Shown here: in pieces, positions 11,399-37,949 of the stretch | Layout: every line of letters starts with the position of its first letter | How positions within the stretch are numbered: position 1 is the first letter of the stretch | NCBI RefSeq assembly: GCF_007993755.1 | Contig: NZ_CP042467.1 | Location: forward strand, 3,248,001-3,312,000 | Length of the DNA stretch: 64,000 nucleotides | DNA from: Microvenator marinus | Lineage (GTDB): Bacteria > Myxococcota_A > Bradymonadia > Bradymonadales > Bradymonadaceae | Direction of reading: 5' to 3' | Translations under genes and position numbers: made by a program | Notes under the pieces: generated by a model | The model's input: the letters and a program-made list of their open reading frames with translations, nothing else | Told to the model about the DNA's origin: nothing | The model's database searches: none

Positions 11399-12532
11399 CT
11401 AAATGATATTCCCCTCGGATACGTTGAACGCCTGCACATCATCGTCCAACAGAATGTAGTCGCGATGCGTGGTCGTAATGAAGACCTGCCCGTCTGGCCG
11501 ACCTCTGAGGAAGTCAAACAAGTAGCGGTTTCGCTCGCGATCGAGCTCACTCGAGACATCATCGAGCAAGAGAATCGGTGCGAAACGGTAGCGCTCTTCG
11601 AGGTACCGAATCTCAGCGATCTTCATGGCTAGGACAAAGGCTCGGTGTTGTCCCTGACTTGCGAACGTCCGCACGCTATGGCCGTTCAGGAAGCTCAGGA
11701 GGTCGTCTCGATGCGGGCCGACCATGGTGTAGCCTCGCTCGCGCTCAACGCCCTTAAAGCTCGCGATAGCGCCTTCCAGGCACTTTTCAATCTCGACTCG
11801 CTCCATGGGCAAATCTGAGACCGACTCGTCGTCCTCGTTGTTGAGGTCCCCGTTATGCCAGGGCGTGGAGTAGTGGATGTCGGCCTCGAACTCAGGGTCA
11901 AAAATCTGCCTGAAAGTCGCCACCATCACCGGTCTGAAATTCTCGATGAAATCAAGGCGCCTCATGATGATATCGGTGCCGTACTGGATGAGCTGCTCGT
12001 CGTAGATTGAGAGTAGCGCGGCATCAGGGCGCGGGGTCTTAAGCAGCGCATTTCTCTGCTTAAGCACCTCTTCGTAGTGTTGGGTCTCGAGTGCGAACGC
12101 GGGATGCGCGTTGAAGATGGCGCGGTCCATAAACCGGCGGCGCTCGGCCGGCCCGCCTTTGAGGATCTGGATGTCCTCGGGGCCAAACATCACCACATTT
12201 ACCGTGCCGAAGAAGTCGCTCAGGTTTCGGACAGGATTATTGTTGAGCAAGACCTTTTTGCCGCGTTGATGCACCTGAAGTTTGACGAGTCGCTCGCTTC
12301 CACCGCGCTCTACAAGGGCCTCGAGTTCGGCCTCGGCGTGGCCGTGTTGGATAAGTGCGGCGTTGGTCTGAGGCCTAAAGCTCTTGACGGCGCTCAATAG
12401 ATAGATGGCCTCTAAGAGGTTGGTCTTCCCTTGCCCGTTTTGGCCCCAGAAGATGTTGAAGCGCGGATGCGGCGTCAGGTCCAGAGACTCGATGTTCCGG
12501 AAATGCCTTAGGCGCAAAGCCTGTACGTGCAT
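11399..12532 (-). CDS. recF: DNA replication and repair protein RecF
   Basis: An SMC-like ATPase that loads RecA at gaps through RecOR during recombinational repair. It opens with LRLRHFRNIE, has Walker A GQNGQGKTN at 30-38, the ABC-type FASQGQHRAFVLA signature and Walker B ILLLDDVSSELD near the C-terminus. Length is 377 residues, normal. It follows dnaN by 4 bases in the same operon. gyrB, the common next gene, is replaced by the convergent HEAT-repeat gene. Confidence 0.95.
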   Translation of the reverse strand: MHVQALRLRHFRNIESLDLTPHPRFNIFWGQNGQGKTNLLEAIYLLSAVKSFRPQTNAALIQHGHAEAELEALVERGGSERLVKLQVHQRGKKVLLNNNPVRNLSDFFGTVNVVMFGPEDIQILKGGPAERRRFMDRAIFNAHPAFALETQHYEEVLKQRNALLKTPRPDAALLSIYDEQLIQYGTDIIMRRLDFIENFRPVMVATFRQIFDPEFEADIHYSTPWHNGDLNNEDDESVSDLPMERVEIEKCLEGAIASFKGVERERGYTMVGPHRDDLLSFLNGHSVRTFASQGQHRAFVLAMKIAEIRYLEERYRFAPILLLDDVSSELDRERNRYLFDFLRGRPDGQVFITTTHRDYILLDDDVQAFNVSEGNII

Positions 12533-12536
12533 GGCG

Positions 12537-13661
12537 TCACAGACGCATCGGCATCACCACGAAGAGCATTTCTTCGCGTGAGGTGTCTCGCACAAGAGTT
12601 GGCGAGAGGGTGTCGATGATCTCGATAGAGACTTCGTCGCCGTCGAGGGCGTTGATGACCTCGAGCAGGTACTTGTAGTTGTAGCCGGCTTTGACCGCAG
12701 GTCCCGAATACTCCACAGGAACGGTCTTAAGACCCTCGCCGCGGTCAGGGTCGGTGGCATAGAGCTCAAGGCCGGTATCACTGAGCGAGAGCCGGACGTT
12801 GCTGGTCTTCGAGTTCGAGAAAATGCTCACGAACTTGAGTGCCTGGTGCAGGCTATCTTTGTCCAGGAGCGCCTTCTTGTCGGACTCTTTCGGAAGGACT
12901 TGAGTAAAGTCCGGGAAGGAGCCGTCGATAAGGCGGACCGAGAGCGAGAGTGGCCCATGCTTGAAGACGATATTGTTGTCTTTGAGACCGAATGAGAGCT
13001 CAGGACCTTTGGCGTCAACCACGCGCTTGAGCTCGTTGAGACCTTTGCGTGGGATGATGATGCCGTCGCGCAAAACCTTAGGCGTAGAGCCGCTGACTTC
13101 GAAAGCCTCGGGCTGCGCCTCGATCTTGGAGAGACGGTGGCCATCGGTGGAGACCATGAGCAGCGTGTTGGCGTCCGTGAGTCGGAAGAAGGCACCGGTC
13201 AGGTTTGGACGTGCGTCGTCTGTGGACACGCTGAAGATGGTCTTGTCAATCATGTCGAGCAGGCGCTCGGTGCCGATCGGGAACATCTCGACATCGGTGG
13301 TATCGAGGATTTGAGGGAAGTCGTCAGGGTGTGTGCCTGCGATGCGGCAGTTCACGGTGCCGGACTGAAGTTTCGCCCAGTAGTTGTCCTCAACCTCGAT
13401 GGAGATTTCGCCGTTCTCGAGGTTCTTAACGATATCGAAAAGGTTCTTAGCCGCGAGTGTGACCTTGCCTGGCTCGAGCACTTCGCAAGGGCATGACGTG
13501 GAGACCGAAATATCCAGATCGGTGGCGTGAAACGTCAAGGTTTCGCCATTCGCTTCAAGAAGGACGTTTGAAAGGATAGCAAGGGTGCTTCGCTGACTTA
13601 CGACGCCCTGTACCTTAAAAAGCTCTGATGCAAGGTCTTCTCGAGAAATCCGGATTTTCAT
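12537..13661 (-). CDS. dnaN: DNA polymerase III beta sliding clamp
   Basis: The ring-shaped processivity clamp of replicative polymerase; 374 residues with three clamp domains and the typical start MKIRISREDLASELFKVQGV. The C-terminus ends in LFVVMPMRL, matching the conserved clamp tail (VMPMRL). The frame is open to 13727, but family comparison places the start at 13661. The upstream 370-410 bases carry a cluster of DnaA-box-like sites. With recF directly downstream this is the usual origin-proximal order, though dnaA is not in the window. Confidence 0.96.
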   Translation of the reverse strand: MKIRISREDLASELFKVQGVVSQRSTLAILSNVLLEANGETLTFHATDLDISVSTSCPCEVLEPGKVTLAAKNLFDIVKNLENGEISIEVEDNYWAKLQSGTVNCRIAGTHPDDFPQILDTTDVEMFPIGTERLLDMIDKTIFSVSTDDARPNLTGAFFRLTDANTLLMVSTDGHRLSKIEAQPEAFEVSGSTPKVLRDGIIIPRKGLNELKRVVDAKGPELSFGLKDNNIVFKHGPLSLSVRLIDGSFPDFTQVLPKESDKKALLDKDSLHQALKFVSIFSNSKTSNVRLSLSDTGLELYATDPDRGEGLKTVPVEYSGPAVKAGYNYKYLLEVINALDGDEVSIEIIDTLSPTLVRDTSREEMLFVVMPMRL

Positions 13662-13778
13662 GACGCTTTTGACTCCAACAAGGTTTGTTGAGCCGCACAA
13701 CTCACCATAGCTTAGGGCCTTGTGCAAGCCCTAATTTGCCTCAAGCTTACAAAGCGCTCTTGTACTAGATCTAAAACA

Positions 13779-13797
13779 AATCAAATTTCATTTGATT
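13779..13797. promoter_or_regulatory. AT-rich inverted repeat upstream of dnaN
   Basis: AATCAAAT and ATTTGATT form a perfect 8-bp inverted repeat around TTC, in the most AT-rich part of the dnaN upstream region. It could be an operator of the dnaN promoter or part of the unwinding region of a replication origin. No T-tract follows that would make it a clear terminator. Confidence 0.4.
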
Positions 13798-13832
13798 GGA
13801 TCCTCAGTAGTTTTAGTAGGGGCTGTTGAAAG

Positions 13833-13998
13833 TGTGGAAATCGTCTCTAGGCCTGATATATACTAGATGAGGCGTTCGTCGAATCTCTGTGGAAATCGGT
13901 CATCAATTCGTGGGGAAAGAACTCACTTGGAGTTTTCCACCGAAGATCACAGACTAGATCACAGGCAGATCTCCACACTTTCCACATTTTTTTCCACA
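13833..13998. other. Candidate oriC: cluster of DnaA-box-like sites
   Basis: In this gene-free stretch five sites share the DnaA-box core. TGTGGAAAT occurs at 13833-13841 and 13888-13896 (reverse orientation); TTTTCCACC is at 13933-13941, CTTTCCACA at 13978-13986 and TTTTCCACA at 13990-13998. The last fits the relaxed consensus TTWTNCACA. Between them AGATCACAG is repeated with a 12-base period (13944-13952, 13956-13964). An AT-rich block with an inverted repeat lies at 13770-13800. Position next to dnaN-recF, and minus-strand genes dominating to the left, fit a replication origin. Box matches are not the strict TTATCCACA, so a DnaA-regulated promoter remains possible. Confidence 0.6.
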
Positions 13999-14032: not shown

Positions 14033-15391
14033 ATGAATCGCCATACTCCCAAGATTACCAGAGAGGTCGTGATGACTGAAGAGAATGAACTGCCGAGGGT
14101 TCAGGGCAAGACGGTGGTGCTTACCGGGGCATTGACTGGAATGACGCGCGCTGAGGCTACGGCTGCTTTGGAGGCGATCGGAGCCTACGTATTGCCTTCC
14201 GTCACGAAGAAGACGGACATGGTGTTCTACGGTGGAAAGCCCGGGTCGAAGCTCGCCAAAGCCGAGTCGCTGGGAATTCCGGTCTATGATGAGAGTGTGT
14301 TGAACGCGCTTTTGGAGTCCGAGCCCATCGTGGCGGTGGAATCTCGGGATGCACCTTCAGCCAAAGTCCTTCAGGAGATCGAAGACGGTGAAGTTGTAGA
14401 GGTCAAGGGCTCAGGGGCGTCTCCTTATCAGGTCAAGAATGTGGGCGGGGTCTATTCGTGTTCATGCCCGGCTTGGCGCAATCAATCGGTCGCTATTGAT
14501 GTCCGGACCTGCAAGCATTTGCGGGCGATTCGCGGCGAGGAAGCTGAGGCTGAGCGATGCGGCGGTGAGCATAATGTTCGCAAGACCGCGAAAACTGAGA
14601 GCGATAAGCCCCAGCTCCTCTTGGCGCAGAGTTGGGAGACCCATGTCGATCCTTCGGGCTGGTGGATGAGTGAGAAGCTCGATGGTGTCAGGGCGTATTG
14701 GGACGGCTCCACGTTCTGGTCGCGGCAGGGAAATGAGTTTTTGGCACCCGATTGGTTCGTCGAAGGTCTTCCCGAGACGCCGTTGGACGGTGAGCTCTGG
14801 ATGGCTCGGGGCGCATTCCAAAAGACGGTGGGGATTGTGAAGCGGCAGGATAGAGGCAAGCTCTGGGCGGACCTAAAGTACGTGGTTTTCGATGCGCCGG
14901 ACCACGGTGGTGTGTTCGAAGACCGCCTGGACTTTCTCCACAAAACTCTCGCGCCCGGTGCGCATGAATACGGGCTCGCCCTTGAGCACGCGCTTTGTGA
15001 AGGCTTTGACCACCTGGCAGAAGAACTGAGGCGCGTGGAGTCGCTCGGTGGCGAAGGGCTGATGCTCCGCGAGAAGGGGTCACTCTATATTGGGAGCCGT
15101 TCAACCACGCTGCTAAAGGTCAAGACGTTCTACGATGCCGAGGCTAAAGTCATTGGCTACACGGACGGTGCTGGGCGTCATCGGGGTCGAATTGGCGCGC
15201 TGATGTTGGCCCGGCCTGACGGTATCACCTTCAATTGCGGGACGGGTTTGTCCGATGCTGAACGCAAAAATCCGCCGGCGCTCGGCACCATAGTAACGTA
15301 CCGATTCCAGGAGCTGACGGATGGTGGTGTGCCGCGTTTCCCCTCGTACATTGGTGTTCGAGCAGACGCTGAATGGCCAGACGATGCTTAG
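14033..15391 (+). CDS. ATP-dependent DNA ligase with N-terminal BRCT and SWIM zinc finger
   Basis: A 452-residue multidomain ligase. Residues about 22-98 form a BRCT domain ([18 protein letters not shown], as at the end of NAD-dependent LigA). Residues 141-165 form a SWIM zinc finger (Cys143, Cys145, Cys160, His162). From about 195 an ATP-type nucleotidyltransferase domain follows, with motif I EKLDGVR (Lys215 accepts AMP), [13 protein letters not shown] and LLKVK motifs, then a small OB domain. The catalytic part resembles small LigE-type ligases, which normally lack both N-terminal modules. A second good start is ATG 14072 behind GAGAGG. Inferred: nick sealing in repair, with the added modules binding DNA or partners. 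Confidence 0.88.
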
Positions 15392-34530: not shown

Positions 34531-36072
34531 ATGAAGACACTTTTTGAGCATGAGACGATCTACGTAGACCCAAATGGAACGCGTACGGACGCGCTCCTGG
34601 TGGAGGCCGGTCGCATTCTGGCGATCGGCGAGGAGGCCCGCAGTGCAGCTACGGACGAGCGAGTGGTGCTCGAGGGAGCCTGTTTGGTCCCGGGTCTGAC
34701 CGACGCGCACATACATCTCTGGGGCCTTGGGCAACGCTCACTTGGTAGTCCAATTGTGGAGCTGCGTGGAGCGTCGGGGCCCGAGGAGTTGCTGCAGAGG
34801 CTGCGTGGTGCAGCCTTATGGGATGGGTGGGTCTTCGGTATGGGCTGGGACGAGAACCTCTGGGGGGATAGCCGACTTAGCCTGAGCCAACTTGATGAGG
34901 CCTTCCCCAATGTCCCGGTGTGTTTGAGGCGAATCGACGGTCATGCGTTTTGGGTGAACTCGCTCGCGCTGCGCCTGGCGGGCATTGACGAAACTACACA
35001 GATGCCGGGCGGCGAGTGCGTGAAAGTGGGTGGGCTTCTCACAGGGTTGCTCGTGGATAAGGCGATGGAACCGGTGTCCGCGATACTGCCTACGGTTCCG
35101 GAGAGTGAGGATGAGGCTGTCTATAGGGAGAGCGTTTCCCGACTGCGAAGCTTTGGTATTACGGGGGCTCATAAGGCGTGGATGCCCGCCAACCGCATGG
35201 GCATGTTGGAGCGATTGAAGGCGCAAGGGGAGTTGGGGATACGTCTCTATCTCTTCCTAGATGGCATGGATCCGGATTTACACGAGGTCTTTGATAGCGG
35301 TCCCTATGGTGACGTGGACCTTGGCGTGGGTTGTGTGAAGTTCTTCGCGGACGGTGCGATGGGGTCGCGTGGTGCGCGTCTTTTTGAGCCGTACCGGGAT
35401 TCTGGTCGTGGAGTTTGGGTCCATGGACCTGAGCTTCTCAACGAGCGCATTCCGTGGTTGGCGGAGCGAGGCTGGCAGGTGGCGGTTCATGCGATCGGGG
35501 ATGAGGCGGCGTCTGCGGTATTGGACGCGTATGCCCTTGTGCCGAACGATGTGCGGAGGGCTGCCAGATTGAGACTCGAACACGCTCAGATGATGCGTGA
35601 TGCGGATATTGAGCGAATGAGGGAGCTCGGCGTGGTTCCCAGTGTGCAGTTCATTCATATGCGTTCTGACGCCGCCTGGCTTGAACAGGTGCTTTCCGCG
35701 CCTCAGCTCTTGGAGCTTTTTCGTTGGAGAGATCTCGCTGAGGCAGGGACATTGGCTGGCGGCTCGGATTTCCCGATCGAGGATCCCAACCCATGGCACG
35801 CGATTTCGTGTGCGATGACACGAAGGGACGCAAAGGGCCGAGTGTTTCACGTGGAACACGCGTTGAGCTTCAAAGAAGCTTTTGCTTCCTACACAACCGG
35901 CGCCGCGTGGGCACGGCATCAAGAGAAGTCACTCGGCAAGCTTGAACCCGGATTTTTCGCTGACTTTGCGATCTTGGACAGAGATCCATTTAGCTCTAGT
36001 GCGGAGGAGATTTGGGAAATGAATTGTCTAGGTGTCGCGCTCGGTGGTGACCTTGATCTCTTTGCCTCCTAA
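34531..36072 (+). CDS. YtcJ-like metal-dependent amidohydrolase
   Basis: A 513-residue amidohydrolase-superfamily enzyme. The metal site starts with DAHIHLWG (His60, His62). Further ligands are likely in the KFFADGAMGSRGA, QVAVHAIGDEA, LEHAQMM and GGSDFPIE motifs, all typical of the YtcJ/AepA group. These enzymes hydrolyse amide or formamide-like bonds; the substrate is unknown. Because a terminator ends 10 bases upstream, its own promoter must lie within or before the hairpin, or expression depends on read-through. A parS-like site is inside the gene at 35843. It overlaps the convergent TPR gene by 4 bases. Confidence 0.88.
   Translation: MKTLFEHETIYVDPNGTRTDALLVEAGRILAIGEEARSAATDERVVLEGACLVPGLTDAHIHLWGLGQRSLGSPIVELRGASGPEELLQRLRGAALWDGWVFGMGWDENLWGDSRLSLSQLDEAFPNVPVCLRRIDGHAFWVNSLALRLAGIDETTQMPGGECVKVGGLLTGLLVDKAMEPVSAILPTVPESEDEAVYRESVSRLRSFGITGAHKAWMPANRMGMLERLKAQGELGIRLYLFLDGMDPDLHEVFDSGPYGDVDLGVGCVKFFADGAMGSRGARLFEPYRDSGRGVWVHGPELLNERIPWLAERGWQVAVHAIGDEAASAVLDAYALVPNDVRRAARLRLEHAQMMRDADIERMRELGVVPSVQFIHMRSDAAWLEQVLSAPQLLELFRWRDLAEAGTLAGGSDFPIEDPNPWHAISCAMTRRDAKGRVFHVEHALSFKEAFASYTTGAAWARHQEKSLGKLEPGFFADFAILDRDPFSSSAEEIWEMNCLGVALGGDLDLFAS
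35843..35858 (+). other. parS-like ParB-binding site 1
   Basis: TGTTTCACGTGGAACA differs at one position from the bacterial parS consensus TGTTTCACGTGAAACA. It lies inside the amidohydrolase gene. The same 16-mer occurs in the opposite orientation at 37550. Confidence 0.8.
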
Positions 36073-37226: not shown

Positions 37227-37949
37227 ATGAACCGTTTGCGCGCCAATCTTGTTCCTGCTTTTCTTCTGCTCTGGCTCATCGGTGCAGTGGTGGGAGTAAT
37301 GTTCATGTGGTGGGAGGAGCCAATGCACTTTGCGCCGGTGGATCCGACCGGAGTTGGTGACCGTAGGCCGGGGCAAGAGACGCCTTCTGATGCCGAGTCA
37401 GGTGTTAAGCAGGTTGTGCCTTCGGAGCGGCAACCTTCTGTCTGGCTGAAAGCGCGCCCTGATGCAAGTGACCTTGGTTCGGTGGCTGCAGAGTCGGAGG
37501 TTGTGAATTCTGGTCGAGAGGAAGTTGAGCAGTTGTCGGACCCACGTAGTGTTCCACGTGAAACATGGAACAACCCGATCAACCAGAAAGTGCTCGGTAA
37601 GAAGGCCTGGATGGGTGAACTTAGGCCCGAAGAGGAAGCCAAGATCGAAGAAGTTTTCAACACCCCGATGCCCTCTAAACCAGCTGGAATCGAGCCCCGG
37701 GCCACTTCAATTCAAGCATTCAAAAGCCACGCTGAACGCTGCTACGAGCGATTTCCGACCATTGGCCGAGTAGTGGTGATCTGGAGGATTCGTGGGGACG
37801 GAACACGGGTCGTGATGGACAATCTACACTTTGGTCCGGTGGTGGATGTAGACCCTCAGACTCAGGAATGTTTGCTTGGATTTCAGACCGGACCCATTGC
37901 TTCAGACGAAGTCTTTGAGCGTTGGGTAGAGTATCCGCTCCTATTCTAG
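37227..37949 (+). CDS. Single-span membrane protein with AgmX/TonB-like C-terminus
   Basis: A 240-residue protein with one N-terminal membrane anchor (about 8-28), a variable charged linker (30-160) and a small C-terminal domain. The C-terminal pattern CYERFPTIGRVVVIWRIRGDG followed by a Cys near the end (TQECLLGF) recalls the TonB-like/AgmX-PglI C-terminal domain common in Myxococcota-like bacteria. It is probably an envelope protein facing the periplasm. A parS-like site overlaps the linker coding region. A strong hairpin follows the gene. Confidence 0.65.
   Translation: MNRLRANLVPAFLLLWLIGAVVGVMFMWWEEPMHFAPVDPTGVGDRRPGQETPSDAESGVKQVVPSERQPSVWLKARPDASDLGSVAAESEVVNSGREEVEQLSDPRSVPRETWNNPINQKVLGKKAWMGELRPEEEAKIEEVFNTPMPSKPAGIEPRATSIQAFKSHAERCYERFPTIGRVVVIWRIRGDGTRVVMDNLHFGPVVDVDPQTQECLLGFQTGPIASDEVFERWVEYPLLF
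37550..37565 (-). other. parS-like ParB-binding site 2
   Basis: TGTTCCACGTGAAACA on the plus strand is the exact reverse complement of the site at 35843, with one mismatch to the parS consensus. It lies inside the AgmX-like membrane protein gene. Confidence 0.8.

Follow-up and report, generated by a model that had tools for sequence, protein, structure and literature searches.

A putative BUS-type chromosomal origin beside dnaN-recF, with dnaA encoded elsewhere, in Microvenator marinus and its family

The dnaN-recF locus

The question raised by this locus is whether chromosome replication in Microvenator marinus starts at a cluster of DnaA-box-like sequences beside dnaN and recF, where dnaA itself is missing. 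The genome is a single contig of 5,847,748 bases, and the stretch analysed (the window, 64,000 bases) spans nt 3,248,001–3,312,000; positions below refer to the window unless given in Mb or as genome coordinates. The cluster, at 3,261,833–3,261,998 in the genome, lies in a gene-free gap bounded on the left by dnaN, encoding the DNA polymerase III beta clamp (nt 12537–13661, minus strand; TIGR00663, 294.6 bits, and Pfam), beyond which lies recF (nt 11399–12532, minus strand; TIGR00611, 344.7 bits). These HMM matches confirmed both genes, which the preliminary description had named as reading leftward from the cluster. The reported dominance of minus-strand genes was also found: left of 13.9 kb, ORFs totalled 10.2 kb on the minus strand, and the plus-strand total of 3.3 kb was accounted for by the HEAT gene. 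As had been noted, dnaA was absent from the 64-kb window; a search of the genome located a single copy at 3,353,302–3,354,687, 91 kb to the right of the cluster.

On the right, the gap ends at a plus-strand gene (nt 14033–15391) whose product joins an ATP-dependent DNA ligase to a BRCT domain and to a region rich in Cys and His that by eye resembles SWIM; a position beside dnaN was seen for this gene in M. marinus alone, as it was not found there in the loci of relatives. A terminator was searched for at the locus and none was found.

DnaA-box cluster and tandem array

All five DnaA-box-like sites previously listed within 166 bp were present, namely TGTGGAAAT at nt 13833 and 13888, TTTTCCACC at nt 13933, CTTTCCACA at nt 13978, and TTTTCCACA at nt 13990; a sixth box, ATCTCCACA, was located at nt 13969. 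The site at nt 13888–13896 corresponds to a minus-strand box ATTTCCACA, while a plus-strand tandem array (nt 13933–13998) comprises TTTTCCACC, two GATCACA repeats, ATCTCCACA, CTTTCCACA, and TTTTCCACA, with CACA steps of 12, 14, 9, and 12 bp. The two GATCACA repeats lie in the 9-base direct repeat AGATCACAG of period 12 (nt 13944–13952 and 13956–13964), which proved exact as described, and so did the AT-rich inverted repeat AATCAAATTTCATTTGATT at nt 13779–13797. In the dnaN-upstream arrays of the family, TGTG steps of 12 bp (21 cases) and 11 bp (6 cases) predominated, and this 11–12-bp period accounts for the period-12 direct repeat of M. marinus. Upstream of dnaN, at a distance of 382–426 bases, the family member G002 (locus L076) has an unusually regular DnaA array, in which five perfect TTTTCCACA boxes follow one another in tandem at exactly 11 bp.

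The earlier suggestion that the box variant would be noteworthy for this lineage did not stand, the variant being not exotic: the boxes of relatives are mostly TTTTCCACA or TTATCCACA, and DnaA retains the DHTTV motif. A lineage-specific status of the TTTCCACA box was dropped.

Single boxes are common, with 310 occurrences of the degenerate box in 1.25 Mb sampled from the 5.85-Mb genome, and this frequency speaks for a chance cluster in intergenic DNA. However, the cluster has 6 boxes per 250 bp versus a maximum of 2 elsewhere in the same sample, the Poisson expectation for such clusters is 2e-7 per genome, and conservation across the family (see below) contradicts chance, which is therefore an extremely improbable explanation. 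The stretch at nt 13833–13998 is an intergenic DnaA-box cluster of the kind expected of an oriC.

A predicted unwinding module between the boxes and dnaN

Recognition of the box cluster in the preliminary description was correct, but the decisive element, consisting of an abutting degenerate box, a spacer, a trio element, and an AT-rich segment at nt 13760–13832, had been missed; the boxes given for the candidate origin stand, whereas its span of nt 13833–13998 was too short and its left limit should be about nt 13760. The anchor, putative BUS DnaA-box 1 (ATTTCCACA, nt 13833–13841, minus strand), aligned with TTTTCCACA/TTATCCACA of relatives and is abutted by the degenerate putative box 2 (CTTTCAACA, nt 13824–13832, minus strand), the counterpart of the relatives' second box ATTTCCACA. 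These are followed by a GC-rich spacer, GGGC (nt 13820–13823; in the dnaN sense GCCC or GGCC in most relatives), a DnaA-trio element (nt 13805–13819, plus strand, 5′-CAG TAG TTT TAG TAG-3′), for which relatives conserve CTA CTA NNN CTA, and a predicted AT-rich DNA unwinding element (nt 13760–13804) that includes the inverted repeat. In the dnaN sense the order is ATTTCCACA-CTTTCAACA-GCCC-CTA-CTA-AAA-CTA-CTG-AGGATCCAATCAAATG, and the trios read away from the boxes are 3′-GAT GAT TTT GAT GAC-5′. As expected of the AT-rich element of an oriC, the AT fraction was 0.70–0.75 at nt 13760–13820 versus 0.43 for the window; hairpin folding of the segment was unremarkable (z -1.6).

In described basal unwinding systems (BUS), the spacer length peaks at 10–13 bp and the boxes are in tandem, the upstream one being nearer to the consensus; at least three 3′-NAN-5′ trios no more than 16 bp from a DnaA-box are required (PMC8287927). 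In M. marinus, 13 bp separate the anchor box from the trios. The trio element is imperfect, with exact TAG in three of five units and TTT in the middle one, and box 2 is degenerate; the middle A is present in four of the five units, two of them before the TTT, which gives a sufficient number if the units may be non-consecutive. A scan for a box, 10–13 bp, and a trio returned one place only in the 1.25 Mb sampled, namely this locus. Judged from its sequence, the module left of the cluster is a predicted BUS of a bacterial oriC, directed at dnaN.

These features bear on the possibility that the cluster serves only as a promoter under DnaA control or for DnaA titration, with the origin elsewhere, for example near ~2.55 or ~4.17 Mb. 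Against this, a trio and an AT-rich segment at fixed spacing are not known to play a part in a promoter or titration site.

Conservation of the module and departure of dnaA

In the family of M. marinus, dnaN was detected in 19 of 21 genomes, and the 18 with enough sequence upstream of it were aligned. The order found upstream of dnaN was box arrays, a tandem pair typified by TTTTCCACATTTCCACA, GGCC-CTA-CTA-NTA-CTA, and AT-rich DNA. By eye and by score, the module was present in 15 of these 18 genomes, with a spacer of usually exactly 12 bp; inspection by eye showed a weak trio or none in G009, G002, and G003 and a shortened one in G010–G012.

Throughout the family genomes carrying both genes on one contig, dnaA and dnaN were never adjacent, the distance being about 103–193 kb in G013, G010, G009, and G006 and ~0.5 Mb in G001. 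An alternative would place the start of replication upstream of dnaA (3.353 Mb in M. marinus) and explain the dnaN-side cluster as a relic or as a dnaN promoter regulated by DnaA. One TTTTCCACA is present upstream of dnaA in M. marinus, as are one to three boxes in several relatives; several relatives, however, have no box there, and a scan for box plus trio upstream of dnaA gave no match in 19 loci, whereas the dnaN-side module is conserved, which would not be expected of a relic.

In the sister family (G023, G024, and G025) and other members of the class (G040–G042), dnaA lies directly upstream of dnaN. In these genomes the module sits between the two genes in equal orientation and with 12-bp spacing, and recF adjoins dnaN in their loci as well as in those of the M. 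marinus family. Since the module is located inside the intact dnaA-dnaN gap of sister families, it would be the origin that stayed with dnaN-recF and dnaA that left. The simplest reading of these sequences is that dnaA moved in the ancestor of the family, from a layout that would have been dnaA-[boxes-trio-AT]-dnaN-recF. On G046:C5 and G047:C77, from a further family of the class, about 113–116 kb lie between dnaA and dnaN, which suggests an independent separation.

parS sites, KOPS-like polarity, and GC skew

Two parS-like sites, TGTTTCACGTGGAACA (nt 35843–35858) and TGTTCCACGTGAAACA (nt 37550–37565), were the only ones with at most one mismatch in the M. marinus sample; they lie 22–24 kb from the cluster, as nearby parS sites do at an oriC, and none was found near ~2.55 or ~4.17 Mb. 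In six relatives, wherever both genes share a contig, parS was nearer to dnaN than to dnaA; in G001 the sites at 4.545–4.562 Mb are 11–28 kb from dnaN (4.533 Mb) versus ~0.5 Mb from dnaA. Thus parS tracks dnaN, contrary to an origin on the dnaA side.

The word GGGNAGGG is the E. coli KOPS consensus, which points from ori to ter (PMC2680272). Left of the site, the plus:minus counts of this word in M. marinus were 2:23 and 1:17; on the right they were 17:4 and 40:6, a diverging polarity as expected of an oriC. The reversal at the site, 1:17 against 17:4, had P = 2e-6, and none of 5000 composition-matched word sets was as strong. The best change-point interval, 3,232,900–3,269,227, includes the cluster; the position of dnaA is also tolerated (log-likelihood difference 2.7), so the polarity is compatible with a dnaA-side origin as well. 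A switch of GGGNAGGG on the far arm at ~0.533 Mb marks the terminus, and an FtsK gamma domain is encoded in the genome; no dif site was found in a search with the proteobacterial consensus. Around the origin, GGGNAGGG polarity opposes the local GC skew and is therefore not a by-product of composition.

GC skew of M. marinus was calculated from about 21% of the genome (the 1.25 Mb sampled). It was positive on both sides of the cluster in the window, positive at 2.6–3.05 and 3.18–3.29 Mb, and for the most part below or close to zero at 3.3–4.1 Mb; for about 0.6–0.9 Mb on each flank (samples L012–L017 and L043–L062 and the window), the sign was opposite to that expected for an origin at 3.26 Mb. 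Instead of one minus-to-plus switch at 3.26 Mb there were two main ones, at ~2.55 and ~4.17 Mb, and the anomaly persisted in third-position skew corrected for gene strand. The cumulative GC-skew check proposed in the preliminary description was therefore disturbed in M. marinus itself, with minima at ~2.55 and ~4.17 Mb, although the relative G001 switches at dnaN: in 20-kb samples, its skew changed from minus to plus at 4.52–4.56 Mb and was still positive through dnaA, about 0.5 Mb away. In G013, KOPS and skew samples did not single out an origin position. One 20-kb sample of M. marinus, L027 (nt 1315743–1335742 of the genome), had 34.6% GC in a genome of roughly 55% GC and is probably an acquired island.

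These minima favour an origin elsewhere, with the cluster acting only as promoter or titration site; however, GGGNAGGG polarity over 2.6–4.15 Mb contradicts such positions and fits 3.26 Mb, and with the parS result and the module structure this leaves that explanation very unlikely. An origin beside dnaA, against which the skew switch of G001 also speaks, is likewise to be given very little weight. Somewhat less improbable, though still unlikely, is that there is no single stable origin: the two minima and the wrong-sign skew on both flanks would then stem from secondary or recently used origins or from a recent shift in the position of oriC, and KOPS would by now have taken the polarity set by the present origin at 3.26 Mb. 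The odd skew is best explained by rearrangements that took place near the origin in the past, after which selection would have re-polarised KOPS while base composition lagged behind; an assembly error or extra origins may also be responsible. A single inversion spanning the origin was rejected as the cause, because an inversion containing the origin preserves leading and lagging identity around it.

Taken together, the sequence, its conservation and uniqueness, the polarity, and the parS context make it very probable that the cluster and module are the chromosomal oriC beside dnaN-recF, with dnaA made elsewhere and the module ancestral. The earlier proposal of an oriC next to dnaN-recF without dnaA is thereby supported by the conserved module, parS, KOPS-like polarity, and the skew of G001.

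Relation to known origins and proposed initiation

The M. marinus module resembles the B. subtilis BUS and its predicted homologues in having tandem boxes, a short spacer (10–13 bp from the better-conserved box), 3′-GAT-5′ trios, and a position upstream of dnaN (PMC8287927). Unlike that of B. subtilis, it has a non-adjacent dnaA, five trio units including one TTT, and a degenerate second box. The nearest precedent for the gene layout is Synechococcus elongatus PCC 7942: in cyanobacteria dnaA and dnaN are encoded apart, and in S. elongatus oriC is near dnaN, with DnaA still the initiator (PMC7198777). M. marinus differs in belonging to an unrelated phylum and in having recF after dnaN, and the separation of dnaA was presumably a separate event in the two groups. 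The dnaA-oriC-dnaN origins of G023–G025 and G040–G042 share the order of box, 12-bp spacer, trio, and AT-rich DNA and its polarity upstream of dnaN-recF; their trios are in part weaker and, unlike M. marinus, they keep dnaA directly upstream of dnaN. A literature search found no paper linking Bradymonas with oriC, and Myxococcota, oriC, and dnaA occurred together only in a general genomics review. The type of origin, a BUS-type oriC, is already known; the unusual point is that dnaA lies elsewhere throughout the family.

M. marinus DnaA aligned over its full length with B. subtilis DnaA (8btg) and keeps the DHTTV motif. The equivalents of I190 and R264, the residues for single-stranded-DNA binding and oligomerisation associated with a BUS, were conserved. 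Binding, unwinding, and helicase loading can be projected from B. subtilis and other origins. By this analogy, DnaA encoded 91 kb away would bind the array of 11–12-bp period (nt 13933–13998) and the anchor pair (nt 13824–13841) and polymerise leftward from the latter onto the plus-strand trios (nt 13805–13819). The AT-rich segment on the dnaN side (nt 13760–13804) would then melt, and helicase may be loaded there for bidirectional replication.

Conclusions

The finding fixes the origin for a family in which numbering the chromosome from dnaA would put it in the wrong place. G001:C1 starts at dnaA, though its GC skew points to an origin at dnaN, about 0.5 Mb from there. The finding also shows that KOPS-like polarity can place an origin despite scrambled GC skew. 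Comparison with the sister family provides a clean case of dnaA leaving an intact origin, and the effect of separating an initiator gene from its origin thereby becomes testable.
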